Source: Sphingomonas crusticola (GTDB lineage Bacteria > Pseudomonadota > Alphaproteobacteria > Sphingomonadales > Sphingomonadaceae). Taken from it: a stretch of DNA of 64,000 nt. The translations under genes and the position numbers were made by a program. A model generated the notes under the pieces. That model did no database searches, was not told the origin of the DNA, and saw only the letters and a list, made by a program, of their open reading frames with translations. Of the stretch, positions 23,119-40,590 are shown piece after piece. The DNA is taken from assembly GCF_003391115.1 (NCBI RefSeq), contig NZ_QTJP01000001.1:992001-1056000 (forward strand), given 5' to 3'. The stretch's first letter is position 1, and every line of letters begins with the position of its first letter.

Positions 23119-23126
23119 GCCCCAAT

Positions 23127-23167
23127 TTGTCACATTTTCACTGTTCGTACTAGTCATTCTGTGACAA
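23127..23167. promoter_or_regulatory. Inverted repeat TTGTCACA/TGTGACAA between scfR-like gene and aceA
   Basis: TTGTCACA (23127-23134) and its exact complement TGTGACAA (23160-23167) lie in the divergent gap with centres 33 bp apart, about three helical turns. A further GTCAC follows at about 23171. This suits a dimer or tetramer of the ScfR-like protein controlling itself and aceA, but the DNA motif of this family member is unproven. Confidence 0.55.
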
Positions 23168-23238
23168 TGCGTCACTAATCGCCCTTCCGCCATGCCCACT
23201 AGATCGCAAGGGTAAGCTACAACATTGGAAAGACGATC

Positions 23239-25100: not shown

Positions 25101-26138
25101 CTATCGGTAGCGCAGCACTCCGTTGGCGACCGGTTCGCCGAAGTCGGGCGTGCCGTCGGCGCGATAATGGATCGGCTGAACGCGGGTGTGGCGATTGGGA
25201 TCGAACAGGGGGTCGCCCTTGATCTGAGCGTAATCGCGCGCGTGATAGACGAGCATGTCGCGGCCGTGTTCATCGACCGTAAAACTGTTATGGCCCGGCC
25301 CGTAAACGTGATGCGCGGTCGAGGTACGAAAGACGGGCACGGGAGACTTAGTCCAGCTTTCTGCGCGCATGATGTCGGCATCGGCGGGGGCGGTCAGCAT
25401 CCCCATGCAATAGCGCGCGTCGGTCGCGCTCGCCGAGTAGGTGACGAACAGCCGGCCGTGGCGGGCAAGCAAGGCCGGTGCCTCGTTGACCTTGAAACCC
25501 TGGATCTCCCAGTCGAGCGCTGGCATCGACAGCCGCACCGGGCGCCGTGCCAGCGTCAGCGGGGTGGCAAGCGGTGCGAGATAAAGGTTGCTGTTGGTAT
25601 CGATGCCGGGCTCGCGTTGCGCCCAGCAGAGATAGCGGGTGCCGCGATGGACGAAGCTGGTCGAATCGAGTGTGAAGCTGTCCCACGGCGTCTTCAACTG
25701 GCCGAGCAACGACCAGCGGCCGGCCATCGGATCGGCACTGTCGCAGACGATGGCATAGGTGCGGATGTGGAACACATCTTCGCCGCCGCCGCTCGGGCCT
25801 GCCGCGAAATACATGATCCACCGCCCATCGATCAGGTGAAGCTCCGGCGCCCAGATGAAGCCGGACAGCGGGCCGCTGCGCAGATGGCGCCACAACACCG
25901 CCTCGCTCGCATCGCTCAGTCCGGCCAGCGTGCGCGAACGGCGCAGCACCAGCCGATCATATTCGGGTACGGATCCGGTCATGTAATAGGTGCCGTCCGT
26001 ATGACGGAAGATCTGGGCGTCGGCGCGTTGCCGCACCAGCGGGTTGCGCAACACAGGTTGGGCCGCACGCGCCAGAACAGGGCCGGCGATCGGCGTAGCG
26101 GCTGCGGCGGCGAGGAAAGAGCGGCGGCTAATGATCAT
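25101..26138 (-). CDS. Glycoside hydrolase family 43 (arabinofuranosidase-like)
   Basis: A 345-residue five-bladed beta-propeller enzyme, probably removing alpha-L-arabinofuranosyl or xylosyl groups. The N-terminus is a Tat-type signal (SRRSFLAAAAATPIAGPVLA), so it is exported folded. Propeller motifs include ADAQIFRHTDGTYYMTGSVP with an early catalytic Asp, GFIWAPELHLIDGRWIMYFA in blade two, and VNEAPALLARHGRLFVTYSA holding the probable acid Glu. HHVYGPGHNSF is a conserved late motif. It follows the other GH43 gene after 64 nt and belongs to the receptor-GH43-GH43 run. Confidence 0.9.
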   Translation of the reverse strand: MIISRRSFLAAAAATPIAGPVLARAAQPVLRNPLVRQRADAQIFRHTDGTYYMTGSVPEYDRLVLRRSRTLAGLSDASEAVLWRHLRSGPLSGFIWAPELHLIDGRWIMYFAAGPSGGGEDVFHIRTYAIVCDSADPMAGRWSLLGQLKTPWDSFTLDSTSFVHRGTRYLCWAQREPGIDTNSNLYLAPLATPLTLARRPVRLSMPALDWEIQGFKVNEAPALLARHGRLFVTYSASATDARYCMGMLTAPADADIMRAESWTKSPVPVFRTSTAHHVYGPGHNSFTVDEHGRDMLVYHARDYAQIKGDPLFDPNRHTRVQPIHYRADGTPDFGEPVANGVLRYR

Positions 26139-26202: not shown

Positions 26203-27240
26203 TCAGGGACGCGCCACCGGCCAGCCGTCGCCGGTCCAGCCGATCGGGTTGATCCGCAAGGTCGGGATGCCGCCGTGCTGGGCGTCATAGGCATGATAGG
26301 CGATGAAGAAGCGGTTGCCGTCGTGAAGGATGGCGGGGTGGCCGGGGCCCCGCCAGCGGTGGCTCGGGTCGAGATTGCCGTGGAGCACGATCTGACCGTA
26401 GCCCTGCATCATCGGCTTGCCGTCATGATCCACGTAGGGGCCTGTCACGTCCTTTGAGCGGCCGACGACGGTATAATAGGTACTATTGACCCCCCGGCAG
26501 CAGGCATCATTGCTGGCGAACAGATAATAATAGCCGCCGTGCTCGATCAGGAACGGCGCCTCGATCGCGTCCGAGTTGGTCCGGCGCGCGAGCGAATAGA
26601 CTTTCTGGTCCTCCGTTGCGCGCAGGCCGGTGGCCGGATCCAGCCGGATCAGCTTAAGGCCGGTCCAGAAGCTGCCGAACGCCAGCCAGGCCTTGCCGTC
26701 GCGATCGGTGAACGCGGCCGGATCGATCGCATTGAAATCGCTGGCCAGCGACGAAGCGATCACGGCGCCCTTGTCGGTCCATTTGTAATCGGGTGCGTTC
26801 GGGTCGAGCGTCGGCGAGGTCGCCAGTCCGATCACGGAATGATTGCTGCCAAAGGTGGAGGCAGCATAATAAAGGCGATACTCGCCATTCTGAAACGAGA
26901 TATCGGGCGCCCAGATGCCATTCGCCTTGGGTATCTCGCGCTTCGCCCAATCCGGCATCTGCGCGAACACCGCGCCGGCACGCGTCCATTTGATCAGATC
27001 CTTCGATATACGGATCGGAATCTGGCCGGCCTCCTCGCGCGGGCGGCTGGTGCTGAAGACATAATAAGTATCGGCCTGCCGGATGATGGCAGGATCGTGC
27101 ACCGGCGCGATATCGCCCGTCATAGTGTCGGCGAGAGATATGGCGGCGGGCCGCTGCGCAGACGTCGCGTCGGGTGCGAGTAAGCCGATGCCGGCAATCG
27201 CCAACACCATCGCGCCGCGGATCCCAGTAGGGTGGTTCAC
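26203..27240 (-). CDS. Glycoside hydrolase family 43, endo-1,5-arabinanase-like
   Basis: A 345-residue exported enzyme. I chose GTG 27240 because GGAGG lies just upstream; an in-frame GTG at 27252 lacks this. The signal peptide is AMVLAIAGIGLLA. The catalytic base is in APVHDPAIIRQADTYYVFST, a pKa-modulating Asp in FNAIDPAAFTDRDGKAWLAF, and the acid in DAIEAPFLIEHGGYYYLFAS; RGPGHPAILHDG is also present. This arrangement matches endo-alpha-1,5-L-arabinanases, which cut the arabinan backbone. The paired Cys in FASNDACCRGVNSTYYT is frequent in that group. It sits directly downstream of the large TonB receptor. Confidence 0.9.
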   Translation of the reverse strand: MNHPTGIRGAMVLAIAGIGLLAPDATSAQRPAAISLADTMTGDIAPVHDPAIIRQADTYYVFSTSRPREEAGQIPIRISKDLIKWTRAGAVFAQMPDWAKREIPKANGIWAPDISFQNGEYRLYYAASTFGSNHSVIGLATSPTLDPNAPDYKWTDKGAVIASSLASDFNAIDPAAFTDRDGKAWLAFGSFWTGLKLIRLDPATGLRATEDQKVYSLARRTNSDAIEAPFLIEHGGYYYLFASNDACCRGVNSTYYTVVGRSKDVTGPYVDHDGKPMMQGYGQIVLHGNLDPSHRWRGPGHPAILHDGNRFFIAYHAYDAQHGGIPTLRINPIGWTGDGWPVARP

Positions 27241-27333
27241 TCGTGCCTCCACACCTTGTCCTCAGCGCATCGGGGACATGGCTGAACCATCGGCACAAGC
27301 CGAAGGCCGCTGGCGCATGTCCCTGTCCCCCAC

Positions 27334-30249
27334 TTAGTTGAACGAAAGGCGCGCGCCGAGCGCGAACTGGCGCCCCCGGATGGTCGTCCCGAAATTGGTC
27401 GTGCTGGGGCTGCCGGCGTTTCCGAATGCGTAATAGGATTGATCGAGTTCGTTGGTCAGGTTGGTGGCGTCGAAGGTGAGCGCGATCGCCTTGCTGACAT
27501 TGTAACTGAGCTGGAAATCGAGGCTCTTTTCGGGGACCCGCCAGATCCCGATCGGGTTGGCGAACAGCCGCGCTTCGTTGTTGTGGATGAAGCTCTTGCG
27601 CCAGACATAGGAGAGCCGCGTTCCGATCGGGCCGTGATCATAGGCAAGCGTCACGTTGTAGGACAATTTCGACACGCCGAAAAATGGCGTCTGCACATGA
27701 CCGGTGACGTTGCCCTGCGCATCGACGACGGGAATGGTCTGCGACGAATCGAGCACGGTCAGGCTGCCCTGCACGCCAAGACCGTTAAGCAGTCCGGGGA
27801 GGAATTTGGGGAAATAGACCAGGCCTATCTCTGCGCCCTTGAGCTTGCCATTGGAGGCGTTGTCGGGGGCGTTAATGACGAAGTTTTGCGTATTGTAGTT
27901 GGTGTTCGGGATGTTGATCAGGCGAGCGGTGGACACGACCAGCCCGTCGATATTGCGCTGGAACAAGGTCGCGTAGATCGCGCTGTCGCGATCGAAATAC
28001 CATTCCGCGCCGAGATCGTAATTGGTCGCCTTGGTCGGCCGCAGATTCGGATTACCGCCGGTACCCGATCCGTAACCGACGTTGGTGAGATCGCCGGTCA
28101 GGATATAATTGGGATTGAGATCGACGAAATTGGGCCGGCGCAGGGTACGGCCGTAATTGAAGCGGAAGCGCAATTTGTCAGTCACGTCGTAGCGGACGGT
28201 CACGCTTGGCAGGAAGGAATGGACCTTCTTGCTGGCGCCGCTGACCGAGCCGTCGAGCTGGCTGCGGAAATCCATATCGGTCTTGACGCCGACATAGCGC
28301 ACGCCCGCCTGGAGGCGCAGCGGCCGCCCGGCGATATCCTGCTGGAAATCGCCCTGGACGTAAGCCGCCGAGGTCCGCTCGCGGATGTGGAAATTCTGGG
28401 TCAGCGTCAGTTGGTCGCTCAGCTGGATGCCGGGATCGACGCTGTTGCGATAGAGCGAGCGGATGTCGTCGAGATGAGACGTGACATAATAGCCGTTCGC
28501 CACGACCCACGTCCGCGGCACGTCCGCGCGCCCGTCGAAAAAGCCCTTCTCGATATATTGCAGGCCCGGATCGAGGCTGCTGAGCGGCACGCCGAGCCCC
28601 GGCGCATCCTGGGTACGCGACGCCTCCGTTGCCCGGCGATCGTCGTAGCGCACGCCGAAGCTGATCTTGCGCAACAGCCCCTCTCCCGCGTCATAATCGC
28701 CGTCGAGTTGTGCGGTGCGGGCATTGCCCTTGTTCTTGTTGGCGTTGTCGTAAAATTCGGCGACGGTCCAAATCGCGGGATTGGTGAGGATACTGTCGTC
28801 GTTGAAATGGAAGCCGGTGATGCCGTTGCCGGAGTTGAGATCGACGTTGATCTGATCGGCGACGCGGGTGGTGCGCAGCGCGGCGAAGGATGATTTGAAA
28901 GTGCTGTCTTGATAGGACAGATCACCGCGTAATTTCAGCCGATCGCCAATGTCCCATTTGCCACTCAGAGCATAGACGAAACTATCGGTGCTCGACTTGG
29001 TCACATCGCCGCTGTTGAAGCCGAATACCGACCCGACCTGACGGGTCTTGATCATGTTTGAATCCGGATAGAGCGTGATGGTCGAAGCGGGATTGGGGCC
29101 GAGATTGCCCCACCAGTCGACAAAGGTGAAGAACAGGTCGTTGAAAGTCGTGTTGCGATAGCCGTCCCAGAAGAATTCGGCGGTATATTCGGAACTGCTG
29201 TTCGGCGCCCATTGCAGCGCGACGTTCACCGCCGGGCGTTTGCGATCGCCGTGGAGCGCGTTCTGAAAGACCGCGTCGCGTGACAGCAGATAAGGCGACT
29301 GCACCCCGTTGATGAGCAGGGTCGAGCCGGGCGCCTCGGGCAGGCCGGCGTCGAGGCCCGGCACCCACAATTGCTGGCCGGGGGCGCGTCCATCGGTCGG
29401 CTGGATCCGCTCCAACGGAGTCCAGCCGGCGGGCGGATTGGTGGGCGACGCGAACGGCACCAGCGCGCCGGCGGTGACGCCCTGGTCCTTATAGCGGGTG
29501 CGGGCATAGCTGACGTTGACCAGCGCGCCGAGGTCGCCGATCCCGGTATTCCACCGATCGCTGATCAGCGCGCTGACATTGGGGTTTATCTTGTCCGCCT
29601 GCTGGAGATAGATGCCGCGCCCGACTGCCGAAAAGGCGAGGCCGTCGAAGTCGAACGGGCGGCGGGTGAAGACGTCGACCTGGCCGGCGATGCCGGTTTC
29701 GATCTGGGAAGCAGCGCGCGTTTTGTAGACGTCGATCCGGCGCACCAAATTGGCCGGAATATCGGCAAGCGCGAACTGACGGCCCGACGCGGTGAAGATG
29801 TTACGCCCGTTCCAGGTGGTGGTGATATCGGGCAGGCCGCGGATCGAGATGGTGCCGGTTTCGCCCGCGCCGCGATCGGTGACCTGAACGCCGGTAACGC
29901 GCTGAAGGGCCTCGACGACATTGTTGTCGGGCAATTTGCCGACATCTTCGGCAACAACCGACTCCACGATCTGCGTCGCCTCGCGCTTGACGGCGAGGCC
30001 GGCGCGAAGGCTGGCGCGGACACCGGTTACCACGATTTCTTCTTCCGTCGCGTCAGCACCGGCTTGATCGCCATTGAGCGAATTGGCCGACACTGCTGCC
30101 GCCGGCCTGCCCCCCGGCGCGCGATCGGGCCCGTTGGCGGGCGACGCGGCCTGACTAGCTGAAGATTGTCCGCGCGCAGCCGCCGGGGCAGCCCCGGCAA
30201 CCAGCGCCACCAAGGAAACCGTGCACATGGCAGCGCGGCCTGTCGACAT
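27334..30249 (-). CDS. TonB-dependent receptor, oligosaccharide-type
   Basis: A 971-residue outer-membrane transporter of the large Caulobacter/sphingomonad type. I chose ATG 30249 because AAGGGAG is six bases upstream; the ATGs at 30252 and 30255 and GTG 30267 are alternatives. The signal peptide ends near AAARGQ. A long linker leads to EEEIVVTGVRASL (TonB box) and the plug KLPDNNVVEALQRVTGVQVT, a marker of this subfamily, then ISIRGLPDITTTWNGRNIF. The barrel ends IRGRQFALGARLSFN. It heads a unit with two GH43 enzymes, so uptake of arabino-oligosaccharides is likely. An operator-like TTGTCAGACAA lies 43 nt upstream. Confidence 0.94.
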   Translation of the reverse strand: MSTGRAAMCTVSLVALVAGAAPAAARGQSSASQAASPANGPDRAPGGRPAAAVSANSLNGDQAGADATEEEIVVTGVRASLRAGLAVKREATQIVESVVAEDVGKLPDNNVVEALQRVTGVQVTDRGAGETGTISIRGLPDITTTWNGRNIFTASGRQFALADIPANLVRRIDVYKTRAASQIETGIAGQVDVFTRRPFDFDGLAFSAVGRGIYLQQADKINPNVSALISDRWNTGIGDLGALVNVSYARTRYKDQGVTAGALVPFASPTNPPAGWTPLERIQPTDGRAPGQQLWVPGLDAGLPEAPGSTLLINGVQSPYLLSRDAVFQNALHGDRKRPAVNVALQWAPNSSSEYTAEFFWDGYRNTTFNDLFFTFVDWWGNLGPNPASTITLYPDSNMIKTRQVGSVFGFNSGDVTKSSTDSFVYALSGKWDIGDRLKLRGDLSYQDSTFKSSFAALRTTRVADQINVDLNSGNGITGFHFNDDSILTNPAIWTVAEFYDNANKNKGNARTAQLDGDYDAGEGLLRKISFGVRYDDRRATEASRTQDAPGLGVPLSSLDPGLQYIEKGFFDGRADVPRTWVVANGYYVTSHLDDIRSLYRNSVDPGIQLSDQLTLTQNFHIRERTSAAYVQGDFQQDIAGRPLRLQAGVRYVGVKTDMDFRSQLDGSVSGASKKVHSFLPSVTVRYDVTDKLRFRFNYGRTLRRPNFVDLNPNYILTGDLTNVGYGSGTGGNPNLRPTKATNYDLGAEWYFDRDSAIYATLFQRNIDGLVVSTARLINIPNTNYNTQNFVINAPDNASNGKLKGAEIGLVYFPKFLPGLLNGLGVQGSLTVLDSSQTIPVVDAQGNVTGHVQTPFFGVSKLSYNVTLAYDHGPIGTRLSYVWRKSFIHNNEARLFANPIGIWRVPEKSLDFQLSYNVSKAIALTFDATNLTNELDQSYYAFGNAGSPSTTNFGTTIRGRQFALGARLSFN

Positions 30250-30291
30250 CATCATCTCCCTTTTCACCTATGCTCACGGCGTTCGGCTGTA

Positions 30292-30302
30292 TTGTCAGAC
30301 AA
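30292..30302. promoter_or_regulatory. Operator site 1, TTGTCAGACAA
   Basis: Perfect 11-bp palindrome around a central base, upstream of the TonB receptor. It fits the TNGTNNNACNA pattern of FCD-type GntR regulators and is the reverse complement of site 3 at 36077. Confidence 0.65.
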
Positions 30303-30434
30303 GTAACATGCGTCTTTCTAGACGGCAATACTGGAAACGGAGCGATAATTAGCGATGGCAAGACGGCTACGTGTTAAGGGCGCACAGCTGACGATGCGCT
30401 CAGTTGCGACTGATGATTCCCGCTGCTAAGCTTT

Positions 30435-30445
30435 ATGTCTGAGTA
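30435..30445. promoter_or_regulatory. Operator site 2, ATGTCTGAGTA
   Basis: Imperfect copy of the same motif, 47 nt upstream of the AraD1-like gene start. The core GTCTGA is kept and the right half is TA instead of CAA, identical to the right half of site 4. Confidence 0.5.
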
Positions 30446-30492
30446 AATGGTAGCGCTCCCTTAAGCGCGCCGAGAGAATGGAGAGATGCCGC

Positions 30493-31476
30493 ATGTCCCT
30501 TTCACTGGTTCAGTTCCAGGATGCCGATGGCGGTCGCGGTGTCGCCGTTGTCGCGCAGGGGTCCGCCCCCCGCCGGGTGCTGGCGACGGACAGCCTGCGG
30601 GCGCTTGCGCTGGCGGCACTGAACAGCGGCCGCGGCCTGGCGGATCAGGTGGCAGCCAACGGCGTGGGTGAGCCGGTCGATCTGAGCGAGGTGCGGTTGC
30701 TCCCGCCGATCGATCATCCCGACAGCGCGCATCTGCTGATGACCGGGACCGGCCTGACCCATCTCGGCTCGGCCGAGGGTCGCGACAAGATGCACCGCGC
30801 CGCGGTCGAGAATCCGGCGCCGACCGATTCGATGAAGATGTTCATGATGGGCGTCGAAGGCGGCAAGCCGGCAGCCGGCACGGCCGGCGTCCAGCCGGAA
30901 TGGTTCTACAAAGGCGATGGATCGATGCTGGTCGCGCCAGGCGAGCCTTTATCCTCGCCCGCGTTCGCGCTCGACGCGGGCGAGGAACCGGAAATTGCCG
31001 GCATCTACCTGATTGATGCAGAGGGCATGCCGCGGCGGCTGGGCTTCGCGCTCGCCAACGAATTTTCCGATCACGTGACCGAACGCGGCAATTATCTGTG
31101 GCTGGCCCATTCAAAGCTGCGCAACGCCGCGCTCGGGCCGGAGCTGCTGACCGGCGAGCTGCCCGCTGATGTGCGGGGCACCAGCAGGATCGTGCGCGAT
31201 GGCAAGACGATCTGGGAAAAGCCGTTCCTGTCGGGGGAGGCGAACATGTCCCACACGATCGCCAATCTGGAGCATCACCATTTTAAATATGGCCTCTTCC
31301 GCCGCCCGGGCGATATCCACGTTCACTTCTTCGGGACGGCGACCCTGTCGTTCAGCGAAGGCGTGAGAACGCAGGAGGGCGACGTGTTCGAGATCGAGGC
31401 AGCACCTTTTACCTTGCCGGTGCGTAACCCTATCGCGATCGAAGCGCCGATCGCCGTCGCCGTGAAGGCACTCTGA
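30493..31476 (+). CDS. AraD1/GguC-type FAH-fold protein
   Basis: A 327-residue member of the fumarylacetoacetate-hydrolase superfamily group often annotated AraD1 or GguC, which occurs with aldose catabolism genes and is thought to act on 2-keto-3-deoxy sugar acids. Visible features are LMTGTGLTHLGSAEGRDKMH near residue 88, PEWFYKGDGSMLVAPG near 140 and EEPEIAGIYLIDAEGMPRRL, carrying the metal-binding acidic residues; VHFFGTATLSFSEGV follows. ATG 30493 has GGAGAG upstream. It is followed after one base by the dehydrogenase gene, so they form an operon. The exact reaction (dehydratase, aldolase or other) cannot be set from sequence. Confidence 0.85.
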   Translation: MSLSLVQFQDADGGRGVAVVAQGSAPRRVLATDSLRALALAALNSGRGLADQVAANGVGEPVDLSEVRLLPPIDHPDSAHLLMTGTGLTHLGSAEGRDKMHRAAVENPAPTDSMKMFMMGVEGGKPAAGTAGVQPEWFYKGDGSMLVAPGEPLSSPAFALDAGEEPEIAGIYLIDAEGMPRRLGFALANEFSDHVTERGNYLWLAHSKLRNAALGPELLTGELPADVRGTSRIVRDGKTIWEKPFLSGEANMSHTIANLEHHHFKYGLFRRPGDIHVHFFGTATLSFSEGVRTQEGDVFEIEAAPFTLPVRNPIAIEAPIAVAVKAL

Positions 31477-31477
31477 C

Positions 31478-32398
31478 ATGGCGATCCGCATCGGCATCGT
31501 CGGGTTCGGCAAAATCGCGCACGATCAGCATGTGCCGGTGCTACGCGCCTCGCCCGATTTCGAACTGGTCGCCGTCGCCAGCCCCAACAGCATTCTCGAT
31601 GGCTGCGCGAACTTCAAAACGATCGAGCAGATGCTGGCAAGCGACGACGCACCCGAGGCCGTTTCCCTGTGCCAGCCACCGCAGGTGCGCTTCGCTGCCG
31701 CGCAGACGGCGATGAAGGCCGGCAAGCATGTCTTTCTCGAAAAGCCGCCCGGCGCGACGCTGAGCGAGGTCGAGGCGCTGACCCGGATCGCGCGCGACCA
31801 TGGTGTGACCCTGTTTGCCAGCTGGCATTCGCGTTACGCCTCGGGCGTGGAGACGGCGCGCAGCTGGCTGCAGGAACGGACGATCCGCTCGGCGGAAATC
31901 GAATGGAAAGAGGATGTCCGCCACTGGCATCCGGGCCAGGCGTGGATTTGGGAAGCGGGCGGCATGGGCGTGTTCGATCCCGGCATCAACGCGCTGTCGA
32001 TCGCGACCCGGATCCTGCCCGATTTCTACCTGAAACAGGGCGCCCTCTCCTTCCCCGCCAATCGCGCCGCGCCGATTGCGGCCGATCTCGACTTCGTAAC
32101 GGTTGACGGTGTCGCGATTCGCGCCGAGTTCGACTGGCGCCAGACCGGGCTGCAAACCTGGGACATCCGCGTCGATACGGATGGCGGCAAGCTCGCGCTG
32201 AGCAAAGGCGGCAGCGAGCTGGCGATCGACGGCGTTGCCCAGCCGTTGCCGCCCGAGGCTGAATATCGAGGCCTCTACGATCGCTTTGCCGAGCTGGTTC
32301 GTGCAGGCGAGAGCGACGTCGATGTGCGCCCGCTGCGCCATGTCGCCGACGCCTATCTCCGCTCCGAACGCAAGCAGGTCGAGGCGTTCGAGGATTGA
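31478..32398 (+). CDS. Gfo/Idh/MocA dehydrogenase, L-arabinose/D-galactose 1-dehydrogenase type
   Basis: A 306-residue NAD(P)-dependent dehydrogenase. The Rossmann motif is IRIGIVGFGKIAHDQHVPVL, the family-specific KHVFLEKPPGATL sits near residue 85, and DVRHWHPGQAWIWEAGGMGV includes the substrate-pocket region, with FDPGINALSIATRILP after it. Size and motifs match the Azospirillum-type L-arabinose 1-dehydrogenase and galactose dehydrogenases, which oxidise the sugar to its lactone. The L-arabinose assignment rests on the surrounding arabinanases and pentonate dehydratase. It lies between the AraD1-like and hydrolase genes with 1-nt gaps, a tight operon. Confidence 0.85.
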   Translation: MAIRIGIVGFGKIAHDQHVPVLRASPDFELVAVASPNSILDGCANFKTIEQMLASDDAPEAVSLCQPPQVRFAAAQTAMKAGKHVFLEKPPGATLSEVEALTRIARDHGVTLFASWHSRYASGVETARSWLQERTIRSAEIEWKEDVRHWHPGQAWIWEAGGMGVFDPGINALSIATRILPDFYLKQGALSFPANRAAPIAADLDFVTVDGVAIRAEFDWRQTGLQTWDIRVDTDGGKLALSKGGSELAIDGVAQPLPPEAEYRGLYDRFAELVRAGESDVDVRPLRHVADAYLRSERKQVEAFED

Positions 32399-32399
32399 G

Positions 32400-34430
32400 A
32401 TGCGGCGGTCGGGGCTGCTCGCTTGCCTGACCGCGGTCCTCGTCCTTCACGCGCCCGCCCGAGCCGAAGACGGACCGCTCGATACGCACGCCCGCGCGCG
32501 AGCGGCGTTCGGTGATGACGCGTCCTGGTATGAGGGCAATGTCCCCTTCTTCGAAGCGGCGGATGCAACGCTGGAGCAGGTCTATTATTATCGCCTGAAG
32601 GTGCTGCGGGCCCACCAGCGCGACCTCGGCGCGCAGGGCTATATCACGACCGAATTCCTCGATGATGTCGGTTGGCAGCGCGAGCCCTATGCCAGCCTGA
32701 ACGATGCGACCGGCTTCCACATCCGCGAAGCGCGCTGGCTGCACGATCGCCGCTACGCCAACGACTATATCGACTTCATGTACGAGGGCGGCGGCAACGA
32801 CCGCCATTTCGCCGAGGGGATTGCGGATGCGACCTATGCCCGCTTCCTGGCGGACGGCGATCGTGGCTTCGCCACCAGCCATCTCGCCGCAATGCGCCAC
32901 ATTTACAATCTGTGGGACGATCATTTCGATTTCGACAAGGGGCTCTACTGGATCGAACCGCTGCTCGACGCGACCGAATATACGATCGCCTCGATCGATG
33001 CCTCGGGCGGCACCGACGGCTTTCGCGGCGGCGACGCATTCCGCCCTTCGATCAACAGCTATATGTTCGCCAATGCGACCGCGATCAGCCGGCTGGCCGC
33101 TCTGGCCGGGGATGCGCAGGTGGCGGCCGATTATCAGGCGCGCGCCGACGCGCTGCGGGCGAAGGTCGAAGCCAGTTTGTGGAGCCCGGCGCTGTCGCAC
33201 TTCATCGACCGCTACAAGGTCGGCGACGAGCATGTCCGCACTTGGGAGCCGATCCGCGGCCGCGAACTGGTCGGCTACGTCCCCTGGTCGGTCGGACTAC
33301 CGCGCGATCGTCCCGAATATGCCGCCTCGTGGCGCCATCTGCTCTCGGCGCAGGAATTGGGGGGAAAGGCGGGGCCACGCACGGTCGAGCCGTCTTATCC
33401 TTATTATATGCGGCAATATCGCTATGATAAGGCGACCGGCCTGCCCGAATGCCAATGGAACGGCCCGTCCTGGCCCTTCCAGACGACGCAGACGCTCACC
33501 GGCATGGCGAATTTGCTCAACGATTATCGCCAGGATGTCGTGACGCGATCGGATTATACGCGGCTGCTGCGCCAATATGCGTCGCTGCATTTCCACGAGG
33601 GCAAGCTCGACCTGGAAGAGGATTATGATCCTGACAGCGGCAAGCCGATCGTCGGCCTGGCGCGCAGCCATCATTATGATCATTCGGGGTTCGTCGACCT
33701 CATCGTCACCGGCTTGGTAGGGTTGCGGCCGCGCGCCGACGACGTGCTGGAGGTGAACCCGCTGCTGCCGGCGGCGCCCGACGATCCAGGCTACCAGAGC
33801 TATTTCGCGCTGCAGGATGTGCCTTATCACGGCCACCGTATCACGGTCTTCTTCGACGCCGACGGCAGCCGATATCGGCGCGGCCGAGGCCTGTCGGTGA
33901 TGGTGGATGGCAGCCTCGCCGCCAACAGCCCGATCCTGACACGGATCACAATGCCGCTTCCCCCCAAGGCCCTCGAGCCGGTCGCCCGGCCGATCGATGT
34001 GGCGGTACAGCTGCTGCGATCGGGCTATCCGCGGGCCCGCGCCTCGATCAATGCCGACGCAAAGGCGCTGCATCAGGCGATTGACGGCCGCATCTGGTTC
34101 TTCCCCGAGATCGTCAACGGCTGGTCTACCAAGGGATCGTCCGGCAACCATGAATGGCTGGCGATCGATCTCGGCCGCGCGCAGCCGGTGCATGCCGCCG
34201 AACTGGCCTTCTTCGCGGATGGCCGGACGTTTCTGCCGCCCGACCAATATCGCCTGCAACAATGGCGCGCGGGACGCTGGGTCGACCTGCCGGTCGTCGC
34301 CCATCCGCGCGCGATCGGTAACGGCGTGACGCGCCTGGAGTGGCCCAAAATAACCACCAGCCGGGTGCGACTGGTGGTCCGCAACAAGCGCGGTACCGCA
34401 ACGCGGCTGGTCGAGCTCAAACTGTTTTGA
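32400..34430 (+). CDS. Putative exported glycoside hydrolase, six-hairpin type with C-terminal beta domain
   Basis: A 676-residue protein with a signal peptide (GLLACLTAVLVLHAPARA). The central part has the aromatic-rich pattern of (alpha/alpha)6-barrel hydrolases such as GH63 and MGH1-like enzymes: HIYNLWDDHFDFDKGLYWIE, TDGFRGGDAFRPSINSYMFA, CQWNGPSWPFQTTQTLTGMA and DYDPDSGKPIVGLARSHHYD. The last 150 residues (NGWSTKGSSGNHEWLAIDLG) look like a discoidin/F5-8-type carbohydrate-binding domain. I cannot place it in a numbered family; activity on arabinose-containing side chains is an inference from context. It starts at ATG 32400, one base after the dehydrogenase stop, and ends the plus-strand operon. 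Confidence 0.7.
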   Translation: MRRSGLLACLTAVLVLHAPARAEDGPLDTHARARAAFGDDASWYEGNVPFFEAADATLEQVYYYRLKVLRAHQRDLGAQGYITTEFLDDVGWQREPYASLNDATGFHIREARWLHDRRYANDYIDFMYEGGGNDRHFAEGIADATYARFLADGDRGFATSHLAAMRHIYNLWDDHFDFDKGLYWIEPLLDATEYTIASIDASGGTDGFRGGDAFRPSINSYMFANATAISRLAALAGDAQVAADYQARADALRAKVEASLWSPALSHFIDRYKVGDEHVRTWEPIRGRELVGYVPWSVGLPRDRPEYAASWRHLLSAQELGGKAGPRTVEPSYPYYMRQYRYDKATGLPECQWNGPSWPFQTTQTLTGMANLLNDYRQDVVTRSDYTRLLRQYASLHFHEGKLDLEEDYDPDSGKPIVGLARSHHYDHSGFVDLIVTGLVGLRPRADDVLEVNPLLPAAPDDPGYQSYFALQDVPYHGHRITVFFDADGSRYRRGRGLSVMVDGSLAANSPILTRITMPLPPKALEPVARPIDVAVQLLRSGYPRARASINADAKALHQAIDGRIWFFPEIVNGWSTKGSSGNHEWLAIDLGRAQPVHAAELAFFADGRTFLPPDQYRLQQWRAGRWVDLPVVAHPRAIGNGVTRLEWPKITTSRVRLVVRNKRGTATRLVELKLF

Positions 34431-34437
34431 CCATGTG

Positions 34438-34461
34438 GCGGGCGGCAGAGGCGCCGCCCGC
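34438..34461. terminator. Bidirectional hairpin between convergent genes
   Basis: GCGGGCGGC (34438-34446) pairs perfectly with GCCGCCCGC (34453-34461) around a 6-nt loop. It lies between the convergent hydrolase (ends 34430) and GH51 gene (ends 34471), so it could stop transcription from both sides. Confidence 0.6.
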
Positions 34462-34470
34462 AACGACCGA

Positions 34471-36045
34471 TTATTGCAAGTCGAGCACCACCACAGATTT
34501 AGGCGGCAAGGTCACGGTCAATGTGCCGCCGGCAACCTGCGCGCCCGTAAATGTCTGCGGCACCACCACGTTTGGCTGATCGAAGCTGTTGATGGCGTTC
34601 ATGGCGCTGGCCGTGATGATCGTGCCGCTGACGCTGGCCGCGCTGATACCGGCCAGCGTGGTGCTGACCGTGGCGGGCTTGTTGGGATCGAGATTGGCGA
34701 GGCCGATATGGACCTGGCCGGCCTTGTCGCGCACGGCAGACGCGCTCACGCCGGGCATCGTCCATTCGCCCTTATTGTACCAGGGGGATTTGAGCTCGAT
34801 CGGCAGGTTGGTCGCGTCCTGCCACGGCTTGTACATTTTGAAGACGTGGTAAGTCGGCGTTAGCACCATCTTCGGGCCGTCGGTCAGGATCATCGCCTGA
34901 AGGACGTTGATCATCTGCGCGATTGCCGTCATTTTCACGCGATCGGCATGCTTGGCGAAGATGTTGATGTTGATCGCCGCTACCAACGCATCGCGCAGGC
35001 TGTTCTGCTGAAAGAGGAAACCCGGATTGGTGCCGGGCTCGGCATCGTACCAGGTGCCCCATTCGTCGACGACCAGCCAAACACGCTTCTGCGGATCATA
35101 TTTGTCCATCACCGCCGAATGGCGCGTGATGAGCTCCTCCATCCGCAGCGTTTTCTTGAGCGTCATCGCCCACTCATTTTCGTCGAACTGGGTCGCCGAA
35201 CCCTTATGCTCCCAGCCGCCGGGGAAGGTGTAGTAATGGAGCGTGATGCCGTCGATCTGGCTGCCCGCGATACGCATCATCGTATCGGTCCAGTCATAAT
35301 CTTCGGTGTTGGCGCCGCTCGCGAACTTCATGATACGCGTGCCGGCCGGCGCCTTGATGAAGGTCGCGTAGCGGCGGGTGACGTCGGCGGCATATTCGGC
35401 GCGCATGTTGCCGCCGCAGCCCCACAGTTCGTTGCCGATGCCGAAATAGGGTAATTTCCATGGCTCTTTGTGGCCATTGGCCGCGCGTTCCTGCGCCAGG
35501 CTCGAGCCGGTTGGCGAGGTGATATATTCGATCCACTCCGCCATTTCGCGCGGCGGAGCATCCCCGACATTTCCGGAAATGTAAGGCTCGGCGCCGATCA
35601 GATCGACAAAGCCCATATATTCGTCGGTGCCGAAGCTGTTGGGCTCGGTCACCCCGCCCCAATGCGTGTTGACCTTGACCGGGCGCTTGTTGGGCGCGCC
35701 AACGCCATCGCGCCAATGATATTCGTCGGCGAAACAGCCGCCCGGCCAGCGCACCACCGGCACACTCAGGGCCTTGAGCGCGTCCACGACATCGCTGCGA
35801 TAGCCTCGGACATTGGGGATTTTCGAGTTTCGGCCCACCCACACGCCCTCGTAAATGCCGTGGCCGAGATGCTCCGCAAACTGGCTGAAGACCTGGCGGT
35901 TGATGATGGGGCCCGGCTGATCACCGTGGATGACGAGCGTTGCATCCGCACCCCCTGTTTGTGCAGAAGCAGGCGCAAGAGCGCTGGCCATCAACAGGGC
36001 ACCCACAGCACTTCGCAGTAAAGCGCGACCTGAAAATCCGTGCAT
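34471..36045 (-). CDS. Alpha-L-arabinofuranosidase, GH51
   Basis: A 524-residue retaining hydrolase that releases L-arabinofuranose from arabinan or arabinoxylan. The signal peptide (LLRSAVGALLMASALAPASA) predicts periplasmic location, unlike many cytoplasmic GH51 enzymes. Family motifs are VVRWPGGCFADEYHWRDGVG near 97, the acid/base Glu in YFGIGNELWGCGG near 208 and the nucleophile Glu in WLVVDEWGTWYDAEPG near 325. HYYTFPGGWEHKG fits the substrate loop. The C-terminal 100 residues are a beta sandwich. An operator-like site (36077-36087) is 31 nt upstream, and the gene is divergent from the GntR regulator. Confidence 0.95.
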   Translation of the reverse strand: MHGFSGRALLRSAVGALLMASALAPASAQTGGADATLVIHGDQPGPIINRQVFSQFAEHLGHGIYEGVWVGRNSKIPNVRGYRSDVVDALKALSVPVVRWPGGCFADEYHWRDGVGAPNKRPVKVNTHWGGVTEPNSFGTDEYMGFVDLIGAEPYISGNVGDAPPREMAEWIEYITSPTGSSLAQERAANGHKEPWKLPYFGIGNELWGCGGNMRAEYAADVTRRYATFIKAPAGTRIMKFASGANTEDYDWTDTMMRIAGSQIDGITLHYYTFPGGWEHKGSATQFDENEWAMTLKKTLRMEELITRHSAVMDKYDPQKRVWLVVDEWGTWYDAEPGTNPGFLFQQNSLRDALVAAININIFAKHADRVKMTAIAQMINVLQAMILTDGPKMVLTPTYHVFKMYKPWQDATNLPIELKSPWYNKGEWTMPGVSASAVRDKAGQVHIGLANLDPNKPATVSTTLAGISAASVSGTIITASAMNAINSFDQPNVVVPQTFTGAQVAGGTLTVTLPPKSVVVLDLQ

Positions 36046-36076
36046 TGCCCTCTCCCTCGGTGCTTATTGCCTATAC

Positions 36077-36087
36077 TTGTCTGACAA
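36077..36087. promoter_or_regulatory. Operator site 3, TTGTCTGACAA
   Basis: Palindrome between the GH51 gene and the divergent FCD-GntR regulator, the reverse complement of site 1. Its position suits control of both GH51 and the regulator gene itself. Confidence 0.65.
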
Positions 36088-36180
36088 TTACGATAGCGTT
36101 ACGGTCGGCGTCAATCAAGCAGCCTCGGCTGCTCGACAAAGCGGCGACAGCTCCGCATATCAGGCCGGGGAGGACCTTGA

Positions 36181-36930
36181 ATGAGTGCGCAGCAGAGGCT
36201 CGGGGCCGAGAAGGTCAACCCGCCGCCCACCGCTCCTCGGTCGAAGCGCCTGCATGACTCGATCGCGCATCAGCTGGGTGTCGCCATCCTGACCGGCCAT
36301 TATCAGCCAGGCGACATATTGCCCGGTGAGATCGAATTCGCCGAACAATTGCAGGTTTCGCGCAGCGCCTATCGCGAGGCGGTGCGGATGCTTTCAGCCA
36401 AGGGGCTGGTGGAAAGCCGGCCCAAGACCGGTACCCGGGTGAGCGAGCGCGACCGGTGGAACTTGCTGGATCCCCAAGTGCTGGGCTGGGCGTTCGCTTC
36501 GGAACCGAGCGAGAAATTCATCCGCGACCTGTTCGAGCTTCGCTCGATCGTCGAGCCCGCAGCCGCTGAAATCGCCGCAATCCGCCGCACCGGGGCCGAC
36601 CTGGCCCATATGGGACATGCTCTCGGCGAGATGGCGCGGTTTGGGCTCGCGACCGAGGAAGGCCGGGCGGCCGACCAGAAGTTTCATCACGCGATTCTCG
36701 CTGCCGCGCGCAACGCACCGCTCATGGCCCTGTCCAGTTCGATCGCGGCCGCGGTGCGCTGGACGACCATCTTCAAGCAGCGCAAGCGGAAGCTTCCCCG
36801 CGATCCGCTTCCCGACCACCGCCTGCTTTACGACGCGATCGTGGAAGGGAACCCGGTTGCCGCGCGCCATGCGATGACCGAACTGGTCCGGCTCGCGCTG
36901 GAGGACACGGAACTGTCGCTTCGCGCCTAG
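36181..36930 (+). CDS. FCD-type GntR regulator of the arabinose island
   Basis: A 249-residue repressor. The winged helix-turn-helix is at about residues 25-90 (IAHQLGVAILTGHYQPGDIL, EIEFAEQLQVSRSAYREAVR, GLVESRPKTGTRV). The FCD ligand domain follows, with the Asp and His metal/ligand residues expected in FELRSIVEPAAAEIAAIRR, DQKFHHAILAAARNAPL and DHRLLYDAIVEGN. FCD regulators typically bind a carboxylated sugar or acid and release DNA; a pentonate or keto-deoxy-pentonate would fit here. GGGGAGGA is its ribosome binding site. It is divergent from GH51, with operator site 3 between them, and lies in the middle of the genes it probably controls. Confidence 0.93.
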   Translation: MSAQQRLGAEKVNPPPTAPRSKRLHDSIAHQLGVAILTGHYQPGDILPGEIEFAEQLQVSRSAYREAVRMLSAKGLVESRPKTGTRVSERDRWNLLDPQVLGWAFASEPSEKFIRDLFELRSIVEPAAAEIAAIRRTGADLAHMGHALGEMARFGLATEEGRAADQKFHHAILAAARNAPLMALSSSIAAAVRWTTIFKQRKRKLPRDPLPDHRLLYDAIVEGNPVAARHAMTELVRLALEDTELSLRA

Positions 36931-36999
36931 CGCCTGAATATAGCCCGATTCACGCCGTGGGCGGAAACGCGCAGCGCCTCCACCAATAACGATCTGGCT

Positions 37000-38805
37000 C
37001 TAGTGGTTGTCGCGCGGCAGGCCCTTGGTCTGGGCGATGCGCTGATATTTCTCGCTGCCTTCCAGGATCGCGCCCTTATCCATCTGCCCGACCAAGGCGC
37101 GCTGGATCTCCTGCCAGGGCGTTTGGGAAGCCGGATAAGGATAGCCACCGTTGACCTCCAGCGCCTCACGGCGGCGCTGCAGCTCGGCCGCGTCGACCAG
37201 CATATCGGCCCGCCCCTTGGCGAGGTCGATCCGCACGCGATCGCCGGTCTGAAGCAGCGCCAGCCCACCCATCGCCGCCGCTTCGGGCGAGGCGTTGAGA
37301 ATCGAGGGCGAGCCGCTTGTGCCCGACTGCCGGCCATCGCCGATGCAGGGTAAGGCATGGATGCCTTCTTCGATCAGATAGGCCGGTGGGCGCATGTTGA
37401 CCACCTCAGCCGCGCCAGGATAGCCGATCGGCCCGGCGCCGCGCATGAACAGTACCGTATCAGTGGTGATCCCGGTCGCCGGATCGTCGATCCGGCGGTG
37501 ATAATCCTCTGGCCCGTCGAACACTACCGCCGGCCCTTCGAATGCCTCAGGGTCATCCGGATTGGAGAGATAGCGTGCGCGGAAATGCGGGCTGATCACG
37601 CTCGTCTTCATGATCGCAGCGTCGAACAAATTCCCGCTTAGCACGATAAAACCTGCGTCCGTCATCAGCGGCTGACCGAAGCGGCGGATGACGCGATCGT
37701 CCTCGATCGTCGCATCGCGGCAATTGTCACCAATGGTGCGCCCATTGGCGGTGATCACGTCCTCGCGGATCAGCCCCTGCTTCATCAGCTCACTGACGAC
37801 CGCAGGTACGCTACCGGCGCGATAATAATCTTCGCCAAGATACTCGCCGGCCGGCTGCAGATTGACCAACAGCGGCACTTTATGCCCGAACTCCTGCCAA
37901 TCCTTGAGCGTGAGCTCGGCACCGACATGGCGCGCGATCGCCTGGAGATGGATCGGCGCATTGGTCGATCCCCCGATGGCCGAGTTGACGACGATCGCAT
38001 TGAGGAAGGCGTCGCGGGTCATGATGTCGGACGGCTTCAAATCTTCCGCCACCATCTCGACGATGCGTTTGCCGGTGCGATAGGCCGCCTCCTGCCGATC
38101 GCGATACGGTGCCGGGATCGCGGCCGTGCCGGGCAACATCATGCCGAGGGCTTCCGCCAGGCTGTTCATGGTGCTGGCGGTACCCATCGTATTGCAGAAG
38201 CCGGTCGACGGTGCGGACGAGGCGACGAGCTTGATGAAGCCTTGTCCGTCGATTTCTCCGGTCGCGAGCAACTCGCGCGCCTTCCATACGATCGTTCCGG
38301 ATCCGGTGCGCTCCCCCTTGAACCAGCCATTGAGCATCGGCCCGACCGACAGGGCGATGGCAGGCAGGTTCACGGTCGCTGCCGCCATCAGCAACGCGGG
38401 CGTCGTCTTGTCGCAGCCGGTGGTCAGGACCACGCCGTCAATCGGGTAACCGTACAGGGCTTCGACAAGGCCGAGATAGGCAAGGTTGCGATCGAGCCCG
38501 GCGGTGGGCCGCTTGCCGGTTTCCTGGATCGGATGAACCGGAAACTCCAGCGCGATCCCCCCAGCCTCGCGGATGCCTTCGCGAATGCGCTCGGCAAGCA
38601 CGAGGTGATGCCGATTGCATGGCGACAGATCCGATCCGGTCTGGGCGATGCCGATGATTGGCTTGCCCGACTGCAACTCTTCCAGGCTCAACCCGTAATT
38701 GAGATACCGTTCCAGATAGAGAGCGGTCATGTCGATATTGTCGGGATTATCGAACCAGGCGCGGGAACGGAGTTTGGCGTTCCCGGGCGGGTCACGGTCG
38801 GTCAT
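37000..38805 (-). CDS. IlvD/EDD-family sugar-acid dehydratase (probable L-arabinonate dehydratase)
   Basis: A 601-residue Fe-S dehydratase that removes water from an aldonic acid, giving a 2-keto-3-deoxy acid. The three cluster cysteines are present: Cys63 ([10 protein letters not shown]), Cys131 ([12 protein letters not shown]) and Cys204 ([10 protein letters not shown]). [18 protein letters not shown] and [19 protein letters not shown] are further family motifs. Within IlvD/EDD it resembles pentonate dehydratases rather than the branched-chain enzyme. With the 1-dehydrogenase and AraD1-like gene nearby it gives steps of the non-phosphorylative L-arabinose route. It is convergent with the GntR gene and divergent from the permease. 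Confidence 0.9.
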
Positions 38806-39279
38806 GTTCTTACTTTCGAGATGCTAAGCGCGGACTGACGGAAAAAGAATAGATCATCATATTGTGGTAGGTCGCCGCCATATCCAGCGGGGCAGACCCG
38901 AATTTTGTCGGGCTTGGCGTACCGGAAAGACCTTTCGCGCCATCCCTGCCTCGTTCTGTTGCCGGCATGCATAGCCGGAGTTACCAACTGCCGTACCGTT
39001 CGGGAAGTTGCCCGTATAGGGTTGAAGTCTATACCGATTGCTCGATATTTTAATCACATCGGCGGCCGGCGGGTTATACGGGCTGCGCTCGGCATCTCTG
39101 CCCGATGCTGGGCCCGTCGTTGCACTAACCGGTAAGGCGGAACTCGCCCCTCCTCTCCGCATCGCTTCTCCCTCCGCCATAGACGCCCATTGACGGGTTT
39201 GATGAGGCTTTATACTCAGACAAAAGCAAAAGGGAATAAACCCGGTCAGCTTTCGGCTGATCATCGCAGAGGATGAAGT
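38806..39279. promoter_or_regulatory. 474-nt divergent region with promoter and operator site 4
   Basis: No convincing gene is seen here. A sigma70-like promoter for the permease may be TTGACG (39190-39195) and TATACT (39211-39216), spacer a short 15 bp. Operator site 4 is TACTCAGACAA (39213-39223), reading TTGTCTGAGTA on the minus strand, overlapping that -10. The remaining sequence is unremarkable apart from a 28-codon frame beginning at 38968 without a ribosome binding site. Confidence 0.5.
39213..39223. promoter_or_regulatory. Operator site 4, TTGTCTGAGTA on the minus strand
   Basis: Fourth copy of the motif, 57 nt upstream of the sugar permease start. It shares 10 of 11 bases with site 2 and the left 8 bases with site 3. 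Overlap with a -10-like TATACT suggests repression. Confidence 0.55.
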
Positions 39280-40590
39280 ATGGCCGGACCGGCGGGTTTG
39301 ACGCCCCATTCGACTGGTGCCTCCGGGGCCGCGCCGTCCTATCGCGCCGCGCTGACGCTCCTCGCCACATTATTCTTCATGTGGGGCTTTATCACCGTCA
39401 TCAACAACACGCTGCTGCCGCACCTCAGAAGCGTCTTCGACCTCAACTATACCCAGACGACATTGATCGAAAGCGTATGGTTCATCGCCTATTTCGTGGC
39501 GTCGATCCCTTCCGCCAAGCTGATCGAGCGGATCGGCTATCAAAAGTCACTGGTCGTCGGCCTCCTTGTAATGGCGGCGGGCGCGCTCGGCATGGTGCTC
39601 GCGGCCAGCCTTCCCTCCTATGGGGTGACCCTGGTCATGCTGTTCGTGATCGCAAGCGGAATCACGCTGCTGCAGGTCGCGGCCAACCCCTATGTTGCCG
39701 TCGTCGGCCCGCCGCAAACCGCATCCTCCCGGCTCAATCTCGTCCAGGCGCTCAACTCCGCCGGGACTATGTTGGCGCCCTTATTTGGCGCTTACCTGAT
39801 CTTGGGCCGCTCCGTTGGCGGCACGGTCGCGGAAGGCACGGTACTGACCCCGGCCGAACGATTGGCCGACGCGCATTCCGTGGTCTTGCCTTACGTCCTG
39901 GTCGCAATCGTGCTGGTGGTGCTGGCGGTAGCGATCGCGCGCTTTCCACTGCCGGCGATGGGTTCGGCGACGAGCCGGCTAGCGAAGGAAGAGCGCAGGC
40001 ATCATTCGCTCTGGCGCCACCGCAATCTCGTATTCGGTATTCCCGCGATCTTCATTTATCTGATCGCGGAAATCGGTGTCGCCAATCTGTTCGTCAACTT
40101 CGTGAGCCAGCCCGATATCGCCAACCTCACGCATGAGCATGCGGGCCGCTACCTCACGTTCTTGTGGGGGGGCATGATGATCGGCCGTTTCGCCGGTTCC
40201 GCTATCATGCAGAAAGTACGCCCCGAAACCCTGCTCGCTGTCTTTTCGGTGGGCGCCTTCCTGGTGATGATGATCACCGTCTTCGCCCACGGCCCGGTGG
40301 CGATGTGGTCGTTAATCCTGGTGGGCCTGTTTCACTCGATTATGTTCCCGACCATCTTCACGCTCGGCATCCGAGGGCTTGGGCCGCTGACCGAGGAAGG
40401 GTCGGGCCTGCTGATCATGGCGATCGCGGGCGGGGCGCTGGTTGTCGTCCAAGGCAAGCTCGCCGATGCCTATGGCTTGCAATGGTCTTTCCTGTTGACC
40501 GCGGCCTGCGAGCTCTACGTCCTGTTCTACGCCTTATGGGGCAGCCGCCCGACCAATGCGGTTGAGGATGCGGGGCAGACCGGGGGCTGA
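39280..40590 (+). CDS. FHS-family sugar:H+ permease (FucP/GluP-like)
   Basis: A 436-residue inner-membrane transporter with 12 predicted helices. FFMWGFITVINNTLLPHL at the first helix and SGITLLQVAANPYVAVVGPP near 125 are hallmark motifs of the fucose/galactose/glucose:H+ symporter family, as are SRLNLVQALNSAGTMLAPLF and ALVVVQGKLADAYGLQWSFL. Family members take up neutral hexoses or fucose; the context points to L-arabinose. The start ATG 39280 has AGAGGATGAAG upstream. It is divergent from the dehydratase and carries operator site 4 in its promoter. Confidence 0.92.
   Translation: MAGPAGLTPHSTGASGAAPSYRAALTLLATLFFMWGFITVINNTLLPHLRSVFDLNYTQTTLIESVWFIAYFVASIPSAKLIERIGYQKSLVVGLLVMAAGALGMVLAASLPSYGVTLVMLFVIASGITLLQVAANPYVAVVGPPQTASSRLNLVQALNSAGTMLAPLFGAYLILGRSVGGTVAEGTVLTPAERLADAHSVVLPYVLVAIVLVVLAVAIARFPLPAMGSATSRLAKEERRHHSLWRHRNLVFGIPAIFIYLIAEIGVANLFVNFVSQPDIANLTHEHAGRYLTFLWGGMMIGRFAGSAIMQKVRPETLLAVFSVGAFLVMMITVFAHGPVAMWSLILVGLFHSIMFPTIFTLGIRGLGPLTEEGSGLLIMAIAGGALVVVQGKLADAYGLQWSFLLTAACELYVLFYALWGSRPTNAVEDAGQTGG

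Follow-up and report, generated by a model that had tools for sequence, protein, structure and literature searches.

DgoR of Escherichia coli, a GntR regulator of the FadR subfamily, represses D-galactonate genes from sites that overlap their promoters (PMC12288454), and its residues D146, H150 and H195 hold a metal (PMC7674646). More generally, FadR-subfamily operators follow the pattern TKGT/ACMA, in which an arginine contacts the guanine (PMC4494728), and Atu1419 of Agrobacterium fabrum (FCD/VanR group) has a 10-bp palindrome in which guanine 3 is essential (PMC7797058). For the non-phosphorylating arabinose pathway, the GntR regulator AraR2 was predicted by comparative genomics in Halomonas (PMC5507952). 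Here we describe an arabinose locus of Sphingomonas crusticola and the predicted operators of its FCD-type GntR regulator, which is encoded at position 36181 (hereafter regulator 36181). The window is the whole stretch of 64,000 nucleotides that was analysed (contig NZ_QTJP01000001.1, positions 992,001 to 1,056,000), and two- to five-digit coordinates given without a prefix refer to it. Among the papers listed by the literature searches, none dealt with this regulator or its operator in sphingomonads; RegPrecise and article supplements lay outside its coverage, and an earlier prediction there is possible.

The solved structure nearest to the regulator alignment was that of DgoR (7c7e, E 4.2e-42). 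The metal triad and one ligand arginine are kept, R121, D165, H169 and H213 corresponding to R102, D146, H150 and H195 of DgoR, and the metal pocket residues D165, H169 and H213 were invariant in all eight aligned orthologs. DgoR R224 lies beyond the alignment. In contrast to DgoR, whose IR1 site is symmetric (TTGTAGTACAA), the usual operator here is asymmetric, and the neighbouring genes are those of arabinose, not galactonate. The AraR2 system differs in being gammaproteobacterial and in having a regulon with a TRAP transporter and an AraA-AraE set (PMC5507952). The half-site WTGTC/GACAW and the 3-nt centre are shared with FadR-subfamily operators, whereas most sites deviate from the TKGT rule in their other half-site, TASTC; unlike in Atu1419, the matching G is, on one side, replaced by C in roughly half of the sites. 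We consider it highly probable that the locus is an arabinose-utilisation regulon repressed by regulator 36181, with one operator at each of four promoters, release by a sugar acid and an operator that is asymmetric.

Four predicted operators in the arabinose locus

An earlier reading of the window from its letters alone (the sequence-only reading) had proposed four 11-mers in the promoter gaps of the locus as the operators of a complete arabinose regulon run by the local regulator. The positions and strands of all four were confirmed, and each was scored with a held-out matrix, which was built from 280 upstream regions, all of them of other genomes, the window and its near relatives being excluded.

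30292..30302, no strand: operator A, symmetric TTGTCAGACAA, before the TonB receptor/GH43 run; 20.0 bits
30435..30445, plus strand: operator C, asymmetric ATGTCTGAGTA, before the AraD1 operon; 23.6 bits, the top position of the window
36077..36087, no strand: operator B, symmetric TTGTCTGACAA, between GH51 and the regulator gene; 17.7 bits
39213..39223, minus strand: operator D, asymmetric TTGTCTGAGTA (TACTCAGACAA on the plus strand), before the permease gene; 20.6 bits

With these scores the operators took ranks one to four among all positions of the window, and the fifth position reached 14.1 bits. Column-permuted versions of the first full matrix reached 17 bits or more in the window 0.29 times on average (100 permutations; largest 3), and the reversed version reached 17 bits once. 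A whole-genome frequency check restricted the exact palindrome TTGTCWGACAA to the arabinose locus, with two copies 5.8 kb apart in 3,367,145 bases. The 15-mer WNTWSTCNGACAWNW, a pattern drawn after the sites were known, had five exact matches genome-wide, of which four were operators A-D. The four sites are genuine and greatly exceed chance expectation. The textbook FCD consensus TNGTNNNACNA was too loose, with nine matches in the window against 4.96 expected and nine being reached in 5 of 100 shuffles; among the four operators it matched only A and B, which the sequence-only reading had called perfect.

The gene neighbourhood proposed in that reading was borne out by family and domain models:

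25101..26138, minus strand: GH43 (PF04616)
26203..27252, minus strand: GH43, arabinan endo-arabinosidase-like (AbnA model 301 bits, under the cut-off of 480)
27334..30267, minus strand: TonB-dependent receptor (TIGR01782, 546 bits)
30478..31476, plus strand: AraD1 family protein (GguC; NF040903, 515.5 bits, cut-off 340)
31478..32398, plus strand: GFO/IDH/MocA dehydrogenase (PF01408), candidate L-arabinose 1-dehydrogenase by inferred substrate
32235..34430, plus strand: MGH1-like glycoside hydrolase with an F5/8-type region (PF22422); open frame as listed, the true start probably downstream
34471..36045, minus strand: GH51 alpha-L-arabinofuranosidase (PF06964; NF051901 229 bits, under the cut-off of 625)
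36181..36930, plus strand: FCD-GntR regulator of 249 aa, predicted repressor (Pfam GntR PF00392, 60.5 bits; FCD PF07729, 74.7 bits; both over the cut-off, giving the FCD, FadR-subfamily, GntR architecture)
37000..38805, minus strand: IlvD/EDD dehydratase, candidate L-arabinonate dehydratase (PRK13017 1030 bits, cut-off 684; L-arabinonate model 516 bits, under the cut-off of 882)
39280..40590, plus strand: FucP/GluP-type MFS sugar permease (TIGR01272, 293 bits, cut-off 202.55)

A small terminator-like hairpin is present at 30311-30324 on the minus strand, in the TonB promoter gap and just before operator A on that strand. At 21715-24831, a ScfRs/M78/HTH short-chain acyl-CoA-type regulator diverges from an isocitrate-lyase family gene, an arrangement that looks like a local glyoxylate-shunt switch.

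Conservation of the motif and its likely regulator

The first set of related loci comprised 88 loci, the window included, namely the best 80 contigs with regulator orthologs and the loci of seven near relatives. The genes found beside the regulator orthologs were AraD1 (57 loci), permease (52), GH51 (47), dehydratase (47) and KGSADH (40). Motif discovery made no use of the motif proposed earlier: spaced tetramer pairs were counted in 318 non-redundant upstream regions, and the top pair, TACTNNGACA (TACT-N2-GACA), occurred in 66 regions against 0.4 expected. The matrix fitted from this seed on 316 of the regions (two with ambiguous letters were dropped) read TASTCNGACAW with A/T-rich flanks and covered 63% of these 316; at 9 bits, 62.3% of the non-redundant upstream regions were marked, compared to 6.9% for the reversed matrix. 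For site counts per gene, and for the second-set −35 spacing counts below, upstream regions shorter than 80-120 bases were excluded. In-sample, at 9 bits, sites were present before the permease (52/52), TonB receptor (23/24), KGSADH (36/40), dehydratase (41/47), regulator (62/88), GH51 (31/47), AraD1 (26/57) and GH43 genes (8/30 and 3/31).

The second set of 71 loci came from an even draw of 397 family genomes and had no part in training the matrix. In this draw 76 genomes, among them some already known, had a match with an E value of 1e-72 or better, and 9 of 80 loci were removed as overlaps. At 14 bits, sites preceded the permease in 41/42 cases, TonB receptor in 13/13, KGSADH in 29/36, dehydratase in 21/46, regulator in 28/70, AraD1 in 13/47, GH51 in 5/32 and GH43 genes in 0/13 and 0/16, and the reversed matrix gave at most one per class. 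The motif and the arabinose genes thus recur together at the promoters of homologous loci in both sets, and the proposal of a single arabinose regulon is well supported.

The motif followed the regulator. Among relatives with a regulator ortholog, 7/7 dehydratase loci (own genome included) scored at least 16.9 bits; in the absence of the ortholog, 3/3 loci scored at most 11.0 bits although their dehydratases were 73-79% identical. At the loci of more distant dehydratases, 8/8 scored at most 12.4 bits. One genome without the ortholog, G031, keeps the permease, dehydratase, AraD1 and dehydrogenase genes, and no site there exceeded 11.3 bits; one isolated match of 16.8 bits lies about 8 kb from the permease. 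Because the motif beside the dehydratase tracks its ortholog, regulator 36181 is the likely owner of the motif. The claim that it controls all units stands as far as the likely regulator of the regulon is concerned; that it governs the dehydratase by way of operator D (39213) is unproven. The start of the dehydratase gene is 413 bp away from the centre of this operator, and positions of the window closer to the gene all stayed below 14 bits.

That the sites belong to another protein, such as one of the six weaker FCD paralogs of the genome, is improbable. Six further FCD-GntR matches of 30-37% identity do exist, and ATGTCTGACAA lies immediately upstream of the one at 984.4 kb. Against this, the motif follows the orthologs of regulator 36181, and loci around distant-paralog matches in other genomes (L008-L018) had no hit of at least 13.5 bits. 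Likewise, no match of at least 13 bits was found at the loci of paralogs with 48-53% identity (L048, L050, L051); such matches were present at those of the 57% and 61% paralogs (L046, L041).

The 984.4-kb gene (L052:8232-8975; G000:C1, about 984.2-985.0 kb) also encodes an FCD-GntR protein and is located next to a TonB receptor, about 7 kb to the left of the window; its upstream element (L052:9085) may indicate cross-talk or a related operator. The 37% paralog at 1272 kb is close to a DGOK kinase and a galactose epimerase. Two relatives of the regulator, L006 and L002 (G003:C5:60104-60811 and G006:C3:19408-20124), contain in-frame stops (TAG, TAA) within the matching region and are possibly decaying or misassembled copies.

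Half-site asymmetry and promoter geometry

The sequence-only reading had taken the TNGTNNNACNA palindrome as the operator, with the sites at 30292 and 36077 as perfect and those at 30435 and 39213 as half-degenerate copies. The conserved form is the asymmetric TASTCNGACAW, and these labels are inverted: 30435 and 39213 represent the archetype, and 30292 and 36077 a minority form. To sidestep matrix bias, asymmetry was counted on exact sites, with TAS or WTG, equally likely by chance, allowed on either side of TCNGA. The first set contained 128 mixed, 13 TAS/TAS and 7 WTG/WTG sites (128:20 asymmetric to symmetric; non-redundant: 101, 11 and 7), and three scrambled centres gave zero matches. The second set contained 73 mixed, 2 TAS/TAS and 4 WTG/WTG sites (73:6), with one match in all for scrambled centres. 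The departure of the first set from the even split expected of free half-site pairing had a p of about 9e-21, uncorrected for relatedness. Since mixed sites dominate both sets, asymmetric sites are the norm. A palindromic TKGT-N3-ACMA operator fits operators A and B; it fits neither C and D nor 128/148 and 73/79 of the related sites. The guanine reported to be contacted by arginine in the FadR subfamily (PMC4494728) is missing from the TAS half-site. Motif discovery and the 128:20 and 73:6 counts ruled out the palindromes as the strong consensus with the other two sites as decayed copies.

In the window, the symmetric operators A and B serve TonB and GH51 promoters, and the asymmetric C and D those of AraD1 and permease. 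The first set showed the same split, with 19/35 symmetric sites at TonB/hydrolase promoters vs 1/113 elsewhere (17/33 vs 1/111 minus the window; 5/13 vs 0/31, p=0.0012, when collapsed to genus and gene). The second set was a fair test because the rule had been formed on the first, and it did not confirm the split (2/10 vs 4/69, p=0.16; TonB 0/8). Symmetric operators as a general mark of TonB/hydrolase promoters were therefore rejected for now, and the suggestion of graded responses keeps the strong split in the 88 loci and loses it in the second set. A symmetric site at the GH51 promoter next to the regulator is shared by the window, L059, L060, L063, L185 and L188; L185 and L188 share 19-mers with L060 and L063 and are not fully independent.

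We see about an even chance that a homodimeric FCD-GntR protein has settled on two different half-sites (TASTC and WTGTC), not an inverted repeat, as its standard operator across sphingomonads and other alphaproteobacteria, in either promoter orientation. The same protein would then read TASTC, which has no TKGT guanine, in a second way, and the choice between asymmetric and symmetric forms would set promoter strength, symmetric sites marking the GH51/regulator promoters of the window's clade. Quite possibly, if short of an even bet, the same sites and protein are at work with both forms equivalent, their difference being drift that brings no graded response. The failure of the symmetry-promoter link to replicate is consistent with such drift, whereas the 128:20 and 73:6 excess over an even split shows that the forms are not interchangeable overall.

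The geometry of the permease promoter was the most regular, its predicted −35 box being:

39190..39195, plus strand: TTGACG, starting 28 nt ahead of the centre of operator D

TTGACG starts 28-29 nt before the operator centre in 51/52 permease promoters of the first set, and the −35 box lies 28-30 nt before it in 40/41 of the second. With the operator reversed, TTG[AC]C was present at 28-30 nt in 19/25 AraD1 and at least 16/36 KGSADH promoters of the first set. A generic promoter scan (spacer 16-18) found nothing in 38750-39350 or 30200-30520. The permease sites also overlap a TATAcT-like −10 at a fixed distance from TTGACG, as would be expected if the conserved blocks were promoter elements and not operators. 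This is very improbable: the element faces either way relative to the gene (permease 52/52 one way, AraD1 26/26 the opposite), it reaches beyond the −10, and it is not found in the permease-dehydratase gap of the regulator-less G031. Its presence in both orientations also ruled out asymmetry as a mere overlap with the −10 box.

The position of the operator over the −10 box at permease promoters argues for steric repression. It is unlikely that the protein acts as an activator at some promoters, for which the TonB promoters without a fixed −35 spacing might speak. LldR-type relatives are repressors, which counts against activation. So does the operator covering the −10 at permease promoters, and the related DgoR is a repressor as well (PMC12288454).

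In the proposed mechanism of repression, dimeric regulator 36181 without inducer would occupy one operator at each of the four promoters. It would recognise TASTC and WTGTC, two different half-sites with a single free base between them (in a minority of sites, operators A and B among them, one half-site is present twice), and, bound over the −10 region, would keep RNA polymerase off. The dehydrogenase, together with a lactonase, would make a sugar acid inside the cell, most likely L-arabinonate, which would be the inducer. D-galactonate and L-arabinonate have the same configuration at C2-C4. Entry of the sugar acid into the metal-containing FCD pocket would release the repressor and open the TonB/GH43 run, the AraD1-dehydrogenase-hydrolase operon, GH51 with the regulator itself, and the permease.

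Extent and meaning of the regulon

The regulon is not complete as had been proposed, since candidates for KGSADH and the lactonase lie elsewhere without sites. KGSADH belongs to the regulon of many relatives; the genome itself has only distant homologues (best 31%). A second cluster (G000:C1:2274981-2281347; L148, L178) holds together a KGSADH-like aldehyde dehydrogenase (491 bits with the GucD model, under cut-off), a lactonase relative (49% identity) and a second IlvD/EDD dehydratase (61%). No site of at least 11 bits was found in 2272000-2279000, and none of at least 13 bits in 2279001-2292000. Arabinose breakdown probably borrows its last step from this second, perhaps xylonate, cluster. 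A possible fifth target, which we regard as a lead only, is a GH3 gene at about 2.570 Mb (L144:3093-5801; xylosidase/arabinosidase models score under their cut-offs), preceded by a site of 17.3 bits (L144:2969-2987). In G006, the GH3 relative adjoins a GH51 gene with a 26.1-bit site in between. An exact TTGTCCGAGTA at 485367 scored below 11 bits.

Several observations weigh against the proposed regulon and its mechanism. Some dehydratase and MocA dehydrogenase matches are coding sequence of the preceding gene, and the site counts of these two classes are therefore inflated. GH51 and AraD1 often have no site of their own, as expected of genes inside operons, and the GH3 relative of G002 lacks one too. 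The −35 spacing was found in only 3/12 AraD1, 7/28 KGSADH and 0/12 TonB promoters of the second set. Regulator-less loci hold two isolated matches some kb off (L179:542, 16.8 bits; L181:3128, 15.7 bits). Of the eight DgoR pocket positions compared, four are lost: W181 aligns with a gap, P209 stands in place of T191, and R179 and Q173 are likewise not retained.

Overall, the sequence-only reading had found a real regulon and the right regulator with the wrong consensus, and the asymmetry of the operator is the interesting part. The four sites very probably form one switch worked by the repressor, whose favoured site in relatives is unexpectedly lopsided instead of mirror-symmetric. Palindrome-based motif searches would misread asymmetric operators of this kind, as happened here. 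For sphingomonads, bacteria living on plant polysaccharides, the locus offers a regulon for arabinose use with an operator code that can be put to the test, and a switch responsive to arabinose or arabinonate that is at hand for engineering these bacteria. Should the asymmetric operator prove true, it would show the symmetric dimer of a very large regulator family settling on a systematically asymmetric site.

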